This document shows positions 35,874-39,570 of a DNA stretch of 39,701 nt, piece after piece. The notes under the pieces were generated by a model. That model was not told the origin of the DNA, made no database searches, and saw only the letters and a list, made by a program, of their open reading frames with translations. The stretch is taken from positions 1 through 39,701 of the forward strand of contig JACRME010000032.1 in assembly GCA_016235045.1 (NCBI GenBank), given 5' to 3'. Source of the DNA: Nitrosomonadales bacterium. Its GTDB lineage: Bacteria > Pseudomonadota > Gammaproteobacteria > Burkholderiales > Gallionellaceae. How positions within the stretch are numbered: the stretch's first letter is position 1; every line of letters starts with the position of its first letter. Made by a program: the position numbers and the translations under genes.

Positions 35874-37379
35874 TTAAGCGACTTTTTGTTGCTCGTCCGC
35901 CTTTGCTTCCAGCTTGCCCGCCGCGCGCATCTCCTCGTACACCTTGAGGATGGCGTCCTCGATGGGCTCCATCGCGTGTTCGCCGTTGGGCTGGATACCG
36001 GCCGCTTCCAGCGGACCCCAGGGTTCGTAGCCGACCTTGCTGCACAGCACGGCCTCGCAACCAGCCAGCACTTTCAGCGTCTTGTCCAGCACGCTCTCGC
36101 CGTCGCCGCAACTGATGTCGCCTTCGCAATACGGCGTGGTCTTGCGGTGGCCGATGAAACGTACGCCTTCCGACGATGCTTCGTAGATCAGGAACTCGCC
36201 GGCATGGCCGAAGTGCTCGTTGATCACGCCACCGCCCTTGGTGGCGACTGCCATCAGTACCGGGCGCGTATTGGTTGCCTTCCTGATGCCCTGGATATTG
36301 ATCACCTGCACTTTCGATTCCCTGGCGAGGCGTTTGCTTTCCAGTTCTTCGTTGATGGCGGCATGCACCTCGGCGCGCATCTTCATCGCTTCGGGGTAAT
36401 TGATGTCCATCTTCTCGATCTTGTCCATGGTGAACTCGGCACCGCGATCTTCGCCCAGCAATCCAACCGCGTCGGCGCGGCACTGGCGGCAGTGGCGCAT
36501 CATGTTCATGTCGCCTTCGCAGGCATCCTGCAAGGCTTGCAGTTCCTCATGGGTCGGGCCGCGCTGGCCGGTGAGGCCGTAGTAAGTGCCGTGCTCCGCT
36601 TCGGAAATGAGCGGCATCACGTTGTGCAAGAACGCGCCCTTGGCCTTGACGATCTTCGACACTTCTTCCAGATGCTTGTCGTTCACGCCGGGGATCATCA
36701 CCGAATTCACTTTCACCAGGATGCCCTTGGCCACCAGCATCTCCAGTCCTTTCTGTTGTTGCGCGATGAGTATCTCGGCCGCTTCGCGTCCCTTGATGCG
36801 CTTGTTCTTCCAGAAGATCCACGGATAGATCTGCGCACCCACATCCGGGTCGACACAGTTGATCGTGATGGTCACATGGTCGATGTTGTATTGCGACAAT
36901 TGCTCCACCTGCTCGGGCAGCGACAAGCCGTTGGTCGACACGCACAGCTTGATGTCCGGGGCTTGCTCGGACAGCATGCGGAACGTCTCGAAGGTGCGCT
37001 CCGGGTTGGCCAAAGGATCGCCGGGACCGGCGATGCCCAGCACCGTCATTTGCGGAATGGTCGCCGCGACCGCCAATACTTTCTTCACCGCCTGCACCGG
37101 GTGGTGCAACTCGGACACCACGCCCGGACGCGATTCGTTGGCGCAATCGTATTTGCGATTGCAGTAGTTGCACTGGATGTTGCAGGCCGGCGCCACCGCC
37201 ACGTGCATACGCGCGAAATAGTGGTGCGCTTCTTCCGAATAACAGGGATGGTTGAACACCTTCTGGCGGATATGCTCCGGCAGGTGGCTCATCTGCTCAT
37301 CCTTCGATCCGCACGACCCGGCGGAACAGCCGCCCTTGGGGGCTTCGCTTGTTGTATTGTTGATTACGGGTAGTTGCAC
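35874..37379 (-). CDS. nifB: NifB, FeMo-cofactor core synthase (radical SAM plus NifX-like domain)
   Basis: NifB uses S-adenosylmethionine to fuse two 4Fe-4S clusters with an inserted carbide and a sulfur to make NifB-co. The 501-aa product has the radical-SAM triad Cys66, Cys70, Cys73 (CNIQCNYC). The N-terminal GGCSAGSCGS motif and the DMNMMRHCRQCRADAVGLLG segment are for the other clusters. A C-terminal NafY/NifX-like domain starts near residue 375 (VATKGGGVINEHFGHAGEF). I chose GTG 37379 because GGAGG lies nine bases upstream and a sigma-54 promoter ends near 37414; the longer frame to 37595 is excluded. Confidence 0.97.
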   Translation of the reverse strand: MQLPVINNTTSEAPKGGCSAGSCGSKDEQMSHLPEHIRQKVFNHPCYSEEAHHYFARMHVAVAPACNIQCNYCNRKYDCANESRPGVVSELHHPVQAVKKVLAVAATIPQMTVLGIAGPGDPLANPERTFETFRMLSEQAPDIKLCVSTNGLSLPEQVEQLSQYNIDHVTITINCVDPDVGAQIYPWIFWKNKRIKGREAAEILIAQQQKGLEMLVAKGILVKVNSVMIPGVNDKHLEEVSKIVKAKGAFLHNVMPLISEAEHGTYYGLTGQRGPTHEELQALQDACEGDMNMMRHCRQCRADAVGLLGEDRGAEFTMDKIEKMDINYPEAMKMRAEVHAAINEELESKRLARESKVQVINIQGIRKATNTRPVLMAVATKGGGVINEHFGHAGEFLIYEASSEGVRFIGHRKTTPYCEGDISCGDGESVLDKTLKVLAGCEAVLCSKVGYEPWGPLEAAGIQPNGEHAMEPIEDAILKVYEEMRAAGKLEAKADEQQKVA

Positions 37380-37413
37380 GATCTGTCCTCCGCTAAGGTC
37401 TGGCTGAGTATGA

Positions 37414-37428
37414 GCAAACAGCGTGCCC
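37414..37428 (-). promoter_or_regulatory. nifB: Sigma-54 promoter of nifB
   Basis: On the minus strand GGGCAC-N5-TTGC gives the GG and GC doublets 10 bases apart; only the first T of the consensus is changed. The transcript would begin near 37402, about 23 bases before the GTG, leaving room for the GGAGG. Confidence 0.82.
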
Positions 37429-37444
37429 GCCCGGCTGCGATTAT

Positions 37445-37457
37445 TAACAAGTTGTTT
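37445..37457 (-). promoter_or_regulatory. Weak candidate IHF site near nifB
   Basis: TAACAAGTTGTTT has one mismatch to YAANNNNTTGATW. It lies between the nifB promoter and the NifA sites, in the AT-richest part of the region. Confidence 0.35.
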
Positions 37458-37489
37458 TATATAGATATTGCGCAAATGGCGTGCGCCAC

Positions 37490-37505
37490 TGTTGGAAATG
37501 GCACA
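37490..37505. promoter_or_regulatory. NifA upstream activator site 1 of the divergent region
   Basis: A perfect TGT-N10-ACA. It lies about 62 bases from the nifB -24 element and about 100 from the opposite promoter. Confidence 0.82.
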
Positions 37506-37522
37506 TGACATGCGCCGGGGCT

Positions 37523-37538
37523 TGTGGCGAAGGCGACA
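37523..37538. promoter_or_regulatory. NifA upstream activator site 2 of the divergent region
   Basis: A second perfect TGT-N10-ACA, 33 bases from the first (about three helical turns), about 65 bases from the -24 of the plus-strand promoter. Confidence 0.82.
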
Positions 37539-37602
37539 AATTCGCGGGGCAGGGGGCTTCCCGGTGGCGGGTAGAGCAATAGCAGAGCCATTCAATCAAG
37601 GC

Positions 37603-37617
37603 TGGCACTGTAATTGC
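37603..37617 (+). promoter_or_regulatory. Sigma-54 promoter of the Fe-S oxidoreductase gene
   Basis: TGGCAC-N5-TTGC is a complete consensus match with correct spacing. The predicted transcript starts near 37628-37630, only one to three bases before ATG 37631. Confidence 0.92.
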
Positions 37618-37630
37618 CTCTTGATCCGGC

Positions 37631-39061
37631 ATGAAAAAACATCATCTCGATTGGTCCTCTTATGAGACTGCCGGACAAGGCGACGCCTATGCGGGCATCC
37701 CCGCCACGGGCGGCGATTTCGCCAAGGCTGTCTCTGTGTGTATTAGCGACAAACTTTGCCAGCGCAAACCCAAAGGCGTGATGTGCCCGAGCTTTCGCGC
37801 TACCGACGATGCGGCGCATTCGCCGGGCGGCAGAGTGAAAGTGCTCAAGGCGGCATTGAATGGCGAACTCGGCGACGAGCCGTTCGCCGGGGCGCAACTC
37901 GCCGCTGCCATGGAACTCTGCGTCGGCTGCAAAGGTTGCAAACGCGAATGCGCCAACCAGGTCGACATGGCCGCCATCAAGATCGAACATCAGGCGCAGA
38001 GAAACGAGCGATTGGGTGTGTCACGGCGCGACCGGCTGGTGGCGGCGATGCCGCGATGGTTGCAGCATCGCCGCGTCTTGCGCGGCCTGATCCGGTTGCG
38101 CAATGGCACGCCGTGGCTGGCGAAGCTGGGCGAGTTTCTGTTCGGCATTTCGGCGAAGCGGCAGTTGCCGGAACTGGCTATAGAACCCTTCAGCGCAACT
38201 AATCCCTTGGAACAACACTCACTCCTTCCCCCATGCAGGGGGAAGGTCGGGATGGGGGTAGACTCGTTGGGAGATAATATTTCTACCCCCACCCTGCATG
38301 GGGGAGGGAACTCTGATGTGATGCTCTTCGTCGACACCTTCGCCCTGCATTTCGAACCCGAGATCGCCGCCGCCGCGCATCAGGTACTGACCGCCGCAGG
38401 CTATAACGTCATCACCCTGCAAGCGCTCCCGCAGGACGAACCCGACCGCGCCCTGTGTTGCGGTCGCACCTATCTCTCGCTGGGGCAGGTCGAGGCAGCA
38501 CGGTACGAAGCGCGCCGATTGCATTCGGCATTGCGTCCGGCCTTGGCTGCGGGCATCCCGGTCGTCGGGCTGGAACCCTCGTGCATCCTTTCTCTGCGCG
38601 ACGACCATCTCAAACTCGGCCTGGGCGAAGAAGCGGTGGCGTTGTCAAAACAGGTCTACCTGCTCGAAGAATTCATCGCCCGCGAACACGACCGCAAACG
38701 CTTCACCCTCGAATTCAAAGCGCTGCCGCGCGGCAAGACACTGGTGCATGGGCATTGCCACCAGAAAGCCGTCGGCGCGATGAAGTCGCTGCGCAAAGTG
38801 CTGCGCCTGATCCCGGAATTCGAATTCGAATTCATCGAAGCCAGTTGCTGCGGCATGGCAGGTAGCTTCGGGCTGGAGGCCGAGCACGCCGACATCTCCA
38901 TGCAGATGGCCGAGATCGACCTGCTGCCCGCACTGCGCGCCGCACCCGATGCCACCATCCTCGCCAACGGATTCTCCTGCCGCCACCAGATACGCGAAGG
39001 CGTGGATCGCCAACCCGTGCATGTGGCGTTGCTGCTGCGCGATGCGCTGAACACCAATTAA
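37631..39061 (+). CDS. Fe-S oxidoreductase (GlpC/GlcF-like, CCG domains), divergent from nifB
   Basis: This 476-aa iron-sulfur protein belongs to the family that carries electrons beside FAD-linked dehydrogenases. The N-terminal cysteines Cys37, Cys43 and Cys52 (VMCPSFRAT) and the second cluster motif Cys97-x2-Cys100-x2-Cys103-x3-Cys107 (CVGCKGCKREC) are typical. Two CCG-type motifs follow: LCCGRTYLSLG near residue 276 and SCCGMAGSFG near 409. Residues of about 197-228 are encoded by a palindromic repeat, in frame. The gene has its own NifA/sigma-54 promoter, so it belongs to the nif regulon and probably feeds electrons to nitrogenase. A GTG at 37736 behind AAGG is an alternative start. Confidence 0.88.
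   Translation: MKKHHLDWSSYETAGQGDAYAGIPATGGDFAKAVSVCISDKLCQRKPKGVMCPSFRATDDAAHSPGGRVKVLKAALNGELGDEPFAGAQLAAAMELCVGCKGCKRECANQVDMAAIKIEHQAQRNERLGVSRRDRLVAAMPRWLQHRRVLRGLIRLRNGTPWLAKLGEFLFGISAKRQLPELAIEPFSATNPLEQHSLLPPCRGKVGMGVDSLGDNISTPTLHGGGNSDVMLFVDTFALHFEPEIAAAAHQVLTAAGYNVITLQALPQDEPDRALCCGRTYLSLGQVEAARYEARRLHSALRPALAAGIPVVGLEPSCILSLRDDHLKLGLGEEAVALSKQVYLLEEFIAREHDRKRFTLEFKALPRGKTLVHGHCHQKAVGAMKSLRKVLRLIPEFEFEFIEASCCGMAGSFGLEAEHADISMQMAEIDLLPALRAAPDATILANGFSCRHQIREGVDRQPVHVALLLRDALNTN
38219..38312. repeat. C-rich palindromic repeat inside the Fe-S oxidoreductase gene
   Basis: CTTCCCCCATGCAGGGGGAAG and TACCCCCACCCTGCATGGGGG are its two arms, with GGATGGGGGTAG and TTCTACCCCCACC as the outer signature shared with the elements at 11854 and 39064. 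It keeps the reading frame open and encodes LLPPCRGKVGMGVDSLG and similar residues. Confidence 0.85.
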
Positions 39062-39237: not shown

Positions 39238-39570
39238 ATGCTGAACGCCGCCATGCTCGGACTGATGGAACGCATCGCACTCGACATCATGGTGTTGACC
39301 GACGAGATCGGCGAAGAAGATTTCTTCAACAGCCGCCTGACCAAGGTGCAGACCTTGCAATTGTTGGCGAGCCTGGCCCACACCGTCGTCAATCTTCCTG
39401 CCGATACGCGCGAACGCATGCACGAGATCGACTGGGCGGCATGGCTATTGCCTCCCGGCAATATATTGCTAGAATGCCATATATGGAAACGCAACTCGTC
39501 ATCAAGGACAGAGTACGCAAAGGCGATGCGCTCATCGAGCGGGTTGTCTGGGTGGTGCCCGCGCCTGTAA
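39238..39570 (+). CDS. HepT/DUF86-like protein, probably C-terminally truncated
   Basis: The frame begins at ATG 39238 with AAAGGAGAAAG upstream. The first 75 residues (IALDIMVLTDEIGEEDFFNSRLTK, then NLPADTRERMHEIDWAAW) recall the helical HepT/DUF86 toxin family, whose usual end (catalytic RxxxxHxY) is missing. After residue 80 the frame runs into a different gene (39483) in another phase, so its last 30 residues are probably not authentic. No MntA antitoxin gene is nearby. I read it as a remnant; the family call is tentative. Confidence 0.5.
   Translation: MLNAAMLGLMERIALDIMVLTDEIGEEDFFNSRLTKVQTLQLLASLAHTVVNLPADTRERMHEIDWAAWLLPPGNILLECHIWKRNSSSRTEYAKAMRSSSGLSGWCPRL
39448..39475 (+). promoter_or_regulatory. 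Candidate sigma-70 promoter of the TumE-like gene
   Basis: TTGCCT and TAGAAT are 16 bases apart and the predicted start is within a few bases of ATG 39483. It lies inside the preceding frame, which supports that frame being truncated there. Confidence 0.35.

Follow-up and report, generated by a model that had tools for sequence, protein, structure and literature searches.

A pair of NifA sites between nifB and an Fe-S protein gene very probably switches on both genes

Organization of the nifB/Fe-S interval

In the stretch of DNA analyzed here (39,701 nt, hereafter the window), nifB and a gene for a standalone Fe-S protein point away from each other, and the interval between them holds a TGT-N10-ACA pair (UAS1 and UAS2) together with two outward-facing sigma-54 promoters (Table 1). 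The NifA, sigma-54 and IHF sites are matches to what we take to be the respective consensus sequences (WATCAANNNNTTR among them), and the C of the GC doublet was counted as -12, a numbering that we likewise assume. In keeping with a bidirectional NifA/sigma-54 nif promoter, -24/-12 elements with GG and GC are present on both sides, and the UAS centres lie about 95-132 bp from both predicted transcript starts, within the distance of about 80-150 bp adopted for such a promoter. Only 13 nt separate the -12 C of the Fe-S promoter from the ATG. An earlier sequence-only reading of this DNA had described two perfect TGT-N10-ACA sites 33 bases apart, flanked by outward sigma-54 promoters, with nifB as the left gene; sites and promoters were found again at the positions of Table 1, and the TIGR01290 score of the left gene is well over the cut-off.

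The same genome carries nifA (C20, 687.8 bits with its neighbour in frame, cut-off 528.85) and nifH, the latter preceded by its own UAS and -24/-12 site (TGTAGGCACTGCTACA and TGGCACGGAGCTTGCG); no IHF-like match was found upstream of this nifH. A minus-strand sigma-54-like site at 37590-37575 (1 mismatch) might be taken for another nifB promoter but is regarded as a chance match, because few relatives keep it (matched in place with ≤ 3 mismatches only in L001, L009, L014, L017, L022, and L023) and because it lies beyond the NifA sites. Plasmid records searched by DNA with the intergenic region gave no match. In the window and in several relatives the Fe-S gene is followed by a small gene (39238-39570 in the window, MLNAAMLGLMERIALDIMVLTDEI...), which had no Pfam match in the two relatives scanned.

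Table 1. Coordinates of genes, candidate regulatory sites and predicted transcript starts in the window
Feature	Position	Strand	Details
NifA upstream site 1 (UAS1)	37490..37505		TGTTGGAAATGGCACA, TGT-N10-ACA; in 19/19 regions
NifA upstream site 2 (UAS2)	37523..37538		TGTGGCGAAGGCGACA, TGT-N10-ACA; 33 bp from UAS1, start to start; in 19/19 regions
nifB sigma-54 promoter	37413..37428	-	GGGCACGCTGTTTGCT, 1 mismatch to TGGCACNNNNNTTGCW; mean conservation 0.91 (19 aligned regions)
Fe-S gene sigma-54 promoter	37603..37618	+	TGGCACTGTAATTGCC, 1 mismatch to TGGCACNNNNNTTGCW; mean conservation 0.86 (19 aligned regions)
IHF-like site between nifB promoter and UAS1	37445..37457	-	AAACAACTTGTTA, 1 mismatch to WATCAANNNNTTR
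nifB	35874..37379	-	TIGR01290 648.9 bits (cut-off 343.65); GTG start 37379-37377, Shine-Dalgarno GGAGG just upstream
Predicted nifB transcript start	37402	-	12 bases past the C of the -12 element; predicted leader about 23 nt
Predicted Fe-S transcript start	37629	+	2 nt before ATG, near-leaderless
Standalone Fe-S protein gene	37631..39061	+	476 aa; Fer4_8/Fer4_17 dicluster part and CCG (HdrB/LutA-like) part
Stretch with in-frame copy of dispersed palindromic repeat, linker of the Fe-S gene	38190..38335	+	residues about 190-228

Conservation of the interval in Gallionellaceae

The number of NifA-type sites in the window shows no enrichment (6 TGT-N10-ACA against 5.3 expected, with at least 6 in 47 of 100 shuffles), and sigma-54-like sites (≤ 2 mismatches) number 39 against 27.7 expected, a value reached or exceeded in 7 of 100 shuffles. 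As these counts are ordinary, the question was put to relatives. The family sample comprised 150 genomes, 28 of which carry this type of Fe-S gene; 19 loci with a divergent nifB and a gap < 450 bp (window included) were aligned, while the other nine have a nafY-like gene in between (five), are separated by inserted DNA (three) or reach a contig end before nifB (L030). The spacing between UAS1 and UAS2 was exactly 33 bp in all 19 Gallionellaceae regions, no spacing filter having been applied, and the mean frequency of the majority base was 0.93 at UAS1, 0.94 at UAS2, 0.91 at the nifB promoter, and 0.86 at the Fe-S promoter, against 0.64 and 0.60 in the outer spacers, 0.73 between the UASs, and 0.60 in the Fe-S leader. 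Sites and promoters are thus kept in these regions while the outer spacers drift, and it is this conservation among relatives that lifts the sites above chance. Since 33 bp corresponds to about three helical turns, both NifA sites would lie on one face of the DNA.

The two arms of the interval are unequal. From the UAS1 centre to the nifB -12 the distance is 83.5 bp in 12 regions, 85.5 in six and 75.5 in one (L027), whereas from the UAS2 centre to the Fe-S -12 it is 86.5 bp in 10 of 19 and 129.5 in six, with 117.5, 139.5, and 217.5 occurring once each; the nifB arm therefore appears geometrically constrained and the Fe-S arm loose. Helical phasing on the Fe-S side is weak, with a resultant of 0.57 from five distinct distances. 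An AAACAA-N4-TTA motif with variable N4, differing from the IHF consensus at one position, was present on the nifB side in 19/19 regions, while an IHF-like site was seen on the Fe-S side in one of the 19. Shuffled nifB-side spacers produced a chance IHF-like match in 2.5% of cases on average; as the 19 regions are related, the IHF-like site counts as one conserved element and not as 19 events.

Near-fixed geometry and a conserved IHF-like site on the nifB side, neither of which is found on the Fe-S side, are what one would expect if the NifA pair belonged to nifB alone, the Fe-S gene being driven otherwise and its -24/-12 match being a relic. Yet the Fe-S promoter is conserved at 0.86 between flanks of 0.60 on either side, and three genomes in which inserted DNA lies between the two genes bear directly on the point. 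Here (L084, L094, and L099) the nifB and Fe-S start codons are 1.2-2.0 kb apart with no nafY-like gene between them, nifB retains the 33-bp pair and the IHF-like site in each, and one or more separate NifA sites stand 73-195 nt ahead of the Fe-S start; those of L084, with a spacing of 32 bp, resemble a duplicate of the pair. Because each gene has NifA sites of its own once the two are separated, the pair in the compact interval appears to be truly shared. Together with the orthologs outside the family described below, 35 of 56 of which have a sigma-54 site and a UAS (best 80 of 118 relatives) and one alone of which has nifB in the fetched flank, this makes ownership by nifB alone highly improbable.

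In five further loci (L041, L046, L052, L054, and L057) a nafY-like gene, with DIMCO_N and Nitro_FeMo-Co domains in every case, occupies the place of the Fe-S gene behind the NifA pair. The two sites are again 33 bp apart, the nafY-like gene has a perfect -24/-12 site and a predicted leader of 31-45 nt, and an open frame of 88-92 codons (no Pfam match in the one copy scanned) also lies in between. Of the two nafY-type loci examined for an IHF-like site, L088 has one and L089, one of five displaced nifB loci, has none. The earlier proposal that one NifA pair serves both genes is thus strengthened by the conserved arrangement, by the three separated genomes and by the five nafY-type genomes.

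The Fe-S gene beyond nifB

For a scan of contigs from other genomes, the best 80 of 118 relatives were taken, the closest named ones being MAGs titled Gallionellaceae, Gallionella, Sideroxydans, Sideroxyarcus or Nitrosomonadales. Sites were searched in 56 of the 57 loci outside the Gallionellaceae set, several of which come from records titled only Proteobacteria; L117 was left out as it had no start codon in range. Among these loci (best 80 of 118 relatives), 46/56 had a sigma-54 site no more than 70 nt from the start, 36/56 a UAS no more than 330 nt from it and 35/56 both in the proper order, leaving 10 loci with no sigma-54 site and 20 with no perfect UAS inside these limits. In Gallionellaceae, 21 of the 28 loci combine a UAS with a sigma-54 site no more than 70 nt from the start. 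ATG frames ≥ 100 codons on either strand of these loci, whether real genes or not, served as control ORFs; both sites preceded 4 of their 1343 starts and 0.26% of 15826 random positions. Compared with the control ORF starts, the outside loci gave a Fisher p of about 1e-50, with kinship ignored.

nifB was present in the flank of only one outside locus (L112, 5.8 kb off; flanks of up to 6 kb, shorter at contig ends, best 80 of 118), and the link of the Fe-S protein to nitrogen fixation without an adjoining nifB was seen in loci named Azoarcus, Zoogloea, Dechloromonas, Methylomonas, Methylococcus and others, the Azoarcus loci having a sigma-54 promoter and no perfect TGT-N10-ACA nearby. Neighbours include a flavodoxin gene in L107, L108, L134, and L147 (a single cluster, of which the L147 member was scanned). 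Downstream of the Fe-S gene, L132, L135, and L155 have nifE and another gene for a nitrogenase-type subunit (nifE shown in L135, the other gene in L155), and upstream of it L140 (scanned) and L152 (same cluster) have a gene with GAF, sigma-54-activator and HTH domains, of the NifA type. In Methylomonas-type loci the neighbours are DUF6156 and AAA ATPase genes. In seven Methylomonas-type and related loci (L136, L137, L139, L145, L148, L151, and L159) a DUF6156-cluster gene and a UAS are found on the upstream side of the Fe-S gene, the former pointing away from it and faced by a sigma-54-like site, and a gene of the AAA-ATPase cluster comes after it; this is a further bidirectional layout of the NifA type, with a different partner gene.

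Co-occurrence with nifH was assessed in a class sample of 369 genomes, a standalone Fe-S gene being defined by E ≤ 1e-40 and a frame < 600 aa. Six genomes (own included) had such a gene and all six were nifH-positive, out of 32 nifH-positive genomes in total, while the 10 genomes with only a fused YdiJ-like form (frames of 972-1178 aa) included no nifH-positive one; the association of the standalone gene with nifH had a p of 2.7e-7 (3.1e-6 without our own genome). In the family sample, 23 of 28 carriers were nifH-positive, and the other five, in which nifH was not seen, are all at most 88% complete. Since genome searches scored few candidates per genome (10 in the family sample, four in the class sample), absences are uncertain; even so read, 26 of the 32 nifH-positive class genomes had no standalone match and 20 of the 43 nifH-positive family genomes had no Fe-S gene, so that this is at most an accessory nif gene. 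The gene appears to be a repeated companion of nitrogen-fixation genes. The sequence-only reading had tied it to FeMo-co synthesis: the link to nitrogen fixation holds where nifB does not adjoin, and the more specific tie to FeMo-co synthesis is a plausible suggestion.

A second standalone form, paralog B (L066 6458-8475; L064-L073), is about 50% identical and follows a glutathione S-transferase (GST) gene. It was set aside as no part of the switch, having no sigma-54 site within 70 nt in 3/3 loci, and its 13 tree rows are set apart by a branch with 100% support. In L066 a DRAT gene is found immediately upstream, and nifH is 4-9 kb off in several genomes. TGT-N10-ACA occurs 58-68 nt before the GST start in eight of the nine paralog B loci in which this start was found and 337 nt before it in L071; no sigma-54 site was found within 150 nt of the GST start in the nine.

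A predicted near-leaderless message

Leaders and promoters were compared in 110 loci, in which 22 repeats over the 200 bases around the start were counted once, giving 88 rows. The predicted Fe-S leader is 1-4 nt in 20 of the 28 Gallionellaceae loci; the remaining eight are the five loci with a nafY-like gene between, L011 (36 nt), and L015 and L027 with longer leaders. Outside the family it is 1-4 nt in 9 of the 46 promoter-bearing loci and 11-28 nt in the other 37, with none in between (best 80 of 118 relatives). In a protein tree of 113 rows (after removal of four duplicate loci), at least five changes separate short-leader from longer-leader rows, although the tree was built quickly and 29 of its 107 forks are open; with five changes as the minimum, the short-leader state is recurrent. 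nifB, unlike the Fe-S gene, has an ordinary predicted leader. In four Zoogloea-type loci (L101, L102, L103, and L105) an inverted repeat around GGAGAG, recognized by eye, precedes the Fe-S start and spans the predicted transcript start.

The transcript starts are predicted, a sigma-54 start may shift by a base or two, and promoters can escape a consensus scan (a sigma-70 scan found 0 against 0.2 expected, and other promoters are possible), so an unseen upstream promoter, or a sigma-54 start elsewhere, could supply a leader that has an unusual ribosome site. A Shine-Dalgarno match of at least 4 nt was found in 0 of the 29 short-leader loci and in 18 of the 37 longer-leader outside loci; as 19 of the latter also have no such match, the contrast is partial and leaves room for such an mRNA. 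Against it, start codons fall at corresponding residues in short- and longer-leader orthologs, and an in-frame stop (TGA, 37622-37624) 9 nt upstream of the ATG means that no earlier start codon is available in the window. We consider a leadered Fe-S mRNA unlikely and favour the near-leaderless one. In all five nafY-type loci the Fe-S start codon shares bases with the stop codon of the frame before it (ATGA), and from this overlap and the starts of the solo form it follows that the Fe-S start has no clear Shine-Dalgarno sequence of its own in either form; translational coupling would fit the operon form and leaderless initiation the solo form.

The Fe-S protein

The protein encoded in the window matched Fer4_17 (24.3 bits, cut-off 22.2) and, just under the cut-off of 27, Fer4_8 (26.7 bits), as well as the CCG domain PF02754 (22.6 bits, gathering cut-off 20.6, E 0.00012, with no single stretch < 0.001), which was matched at E ≤ 0.001 in 51 of 58 relatives. 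Fourteen cysteines are invariant in the 58-member alignment (C37, C43, C52, C97, C100, C103, C107, C276, C277, C318, C376, C406, C407, and C450). Scores stayed below the cut-offs for GlpC (TIGR03379, 76.6 of 279.9; NF008369, 146.5 of 278, residues 89-474 aligned), the D-2-hydroxyglutarate dehydrogenase YdiJ (NF049975, 115.3 of 1350, the best stretch covering model positions 664-1010 of 1018), LdhH (79.5 of 800) and GlcF (41.3 of 333). The earlier label 'GlpC/GlcF-like' is therefore apt at the superfamily level and fails as a family assignment, all equivalog cut-offs having been missed. Like GlpC, GlcF and the C-terminal half of YdiJ, the protein combines a ferredoxin-like N-terminal part with a CCG part; it differs from them in being standalone, with no flavin partner noticed adjoining, and in occurring with nifH.

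An AlphaFold2 model built from the 58-sequence alignment reached a pLDDT of 88.5 (one from 28 close relatives, at 45.8, was discarded), and a Foldseek search with it retrieved LutA (9a6l_A, E 2.7e-8), EtfD (9ojn, 3.3e-8), HdrB (7bkb_B, 5.2e-5), and also LutB, at 14-21% identity and TM by query of 0.37-0.54 (eight matches, E ≤ 0.001); by sequence, a profile search matched the Fe-S protein to no solved structure. The model thus suggests a CCG-type fold in common with LutA (9a6l, itself an integrative model), mycobacterial EtfD (9ojn) and HdrB, although the overlap is only partial and the genetic context of the Fe-S gene is another one. Residues 208-225 have a pLDDT < 50 and fall inside the in-frame repeat copy. 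This dispersed palindromic repeat has 11 other repeat-like matches in the genome, the fetched copies being 75-91% identical; it is inserted in frame in the Fe-S gene, and the linker length differs among relatives.

The nearest curated families being GlpC, YdiJ, LdhH, and GlcF, albeit all under cut-off, and fused YdiJ-like relatives occurring in nifH-negative genomes, the protein might be part of a carbon-metabolism enzyme (for glycolate, lactate or 2-hydroxyglutarate oxidation) that is in the nif regulon solely for reductant. Against this, the FAD oxidase half fused in YdiJ is absent from the 476-aa protein, no FAD oxidase gene was noticed adjoining among the neighbours annotated, and the neighbours of relatives include nafY-like, nifE, flavodoxin, and NifA-like activator genes. 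We thus hold the carbon-metabolism role to be somewhat unlikely and regard the product as probably a two-[4Fe-4S] plus CCG-domain redox protein of the nif regulon.

Discussion

Divergent genes under joint NifA/sigma-54 control are a familiar type of arrangement. In Klebsiella pneumoniae, Minchin, Austin and Dixon reportedly described in 1988 a pair of divergent sigma-54 nif promoters that have their activator sites in the single region between nifF and nifLA. The nifB/Fe-S interval resembles that system in its two outward sigma-54 nif promoters and in the activator sites of a shared region, and differs in its genes (nifB and the Fe-S gene), in the fixed 33-bp UAS pair, in the IHF-like site on one side only, and in the predicted near-leaderless second transcript.

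Leaderless messages are on record elsewhere, with 171 leaderless mRNA starts reported for Sinorhizobium meliloti (PMC3616915) and 192 transcript starts at the start codon for Bradyrhizobium japonicum (PMC4842269). As predicted for the Fe-S mRNA, these have the AUG at or beside the 5' end; the Bradyrhizobium leaderless genes, in the portions of that report consulted, have an extended -10 type motif, in contrast to the predicted sigma-54 promoter and NifA sites of the Fe-S gene. A literature search covering article text, as distinct from transcript-start tables and supplements, where earlier reports may stand, returned no case of a sigma-54-driven leaderless mRNA. Nor did the open literature, within the article texts covered and with Fe-S protein queries included, return a report of the Fe-S gene as a nif-regulon member. 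The gene may be among the 36 predicted targets in the supplementary table of a NifA study of Azoarcus BH72 (PMC3916325), and it is not named in the consulted text of a NifA-regulon reconstruction for Alphaproteobacteria (PMC4999443). A Gallionellaceae genome paper reports a nifB-nifQ cluster in Sideroxydans ES-1 (PMC3770913), with no mention of its regulatory sites in the portions consulted, and the corresponding portions of PMC3538637, PMC6925177, and PMC5979394 hold nothing on the Fe-S gene.

Comparison of sequences establishes the sites, their spacing and conservation, the recurrent NifA/sigma-54 sites of relatives and the co-occurrence with nifH; NifA, IHF, and sigma-54 binding, the transcript starts, leaderless translation and the biochemical role are inferred. 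Under nitrogen-fixing conditions, NifA bound to both sites would activate sigma-54 polymerase at each of the two promoters. It would act over a near-fixed distance towards nifB, with an IHF-like bend site in between, and over a variable distance towards the Fe-S gene, with no conserved IHF-like site. The nifB mRNA would have an ordinary leader with a Shine-Dalgarno sequence, while the Fe-S mRNA would start 1-4 nt before the AUG and be translated as a leaderless message, its product most likely serving in electron transfer for FeMo-co assembly or nitrogenase. The NifA pair between nifB and the Fe-S gene very probably switches on both, and we are fairly confident, from comparison of sequences, in the fuller account of one NifA enhancer serving two divergent sigma-54 promoters, a leaderless Fe-S message and an Fe-S redox protein in the nif regulon. 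What the comparison adds to the known arrangement is that NifA/sigma-54 sites recur at the Fe-S gene, that an IHF-like site is conserved on one side only, that the two genes are naturally separated in some genomes, and that sigma-54-driven leaderless messages are predicted.

A broader proposal can be offered tentatively, being possible though short of probable: the standalone CCG Fe-S protein may be an unrecognised, dedicated nitrogenase-maturation or electron-transfer factor that recurs across proteobacterial diazotrophs and whose gene came independently to lie directly behind a NifA/sigma-54 promoter as a leaderless message in several lineages, with one enhancer feeding a Shine-Dalgarno transcript (nifB) and a leaderless one (Fe-S). 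If this is true, transcription of the two genes would be coupled, yet the nifB and Fe-S products would be separable at translation under starvation. Sigma-54-driven leaderless mRNAs are predicted, and the shared, separated and nafY-inserted forms may serve as natural variants for studying how one enhancer pair serves two sigma-54 promoters. The Fe-S gene is likely an overlooked component of the nif regulon, standing beside nifB, nafY-like, nifE, flavodoxin or NifA-like genes depending on the relative.
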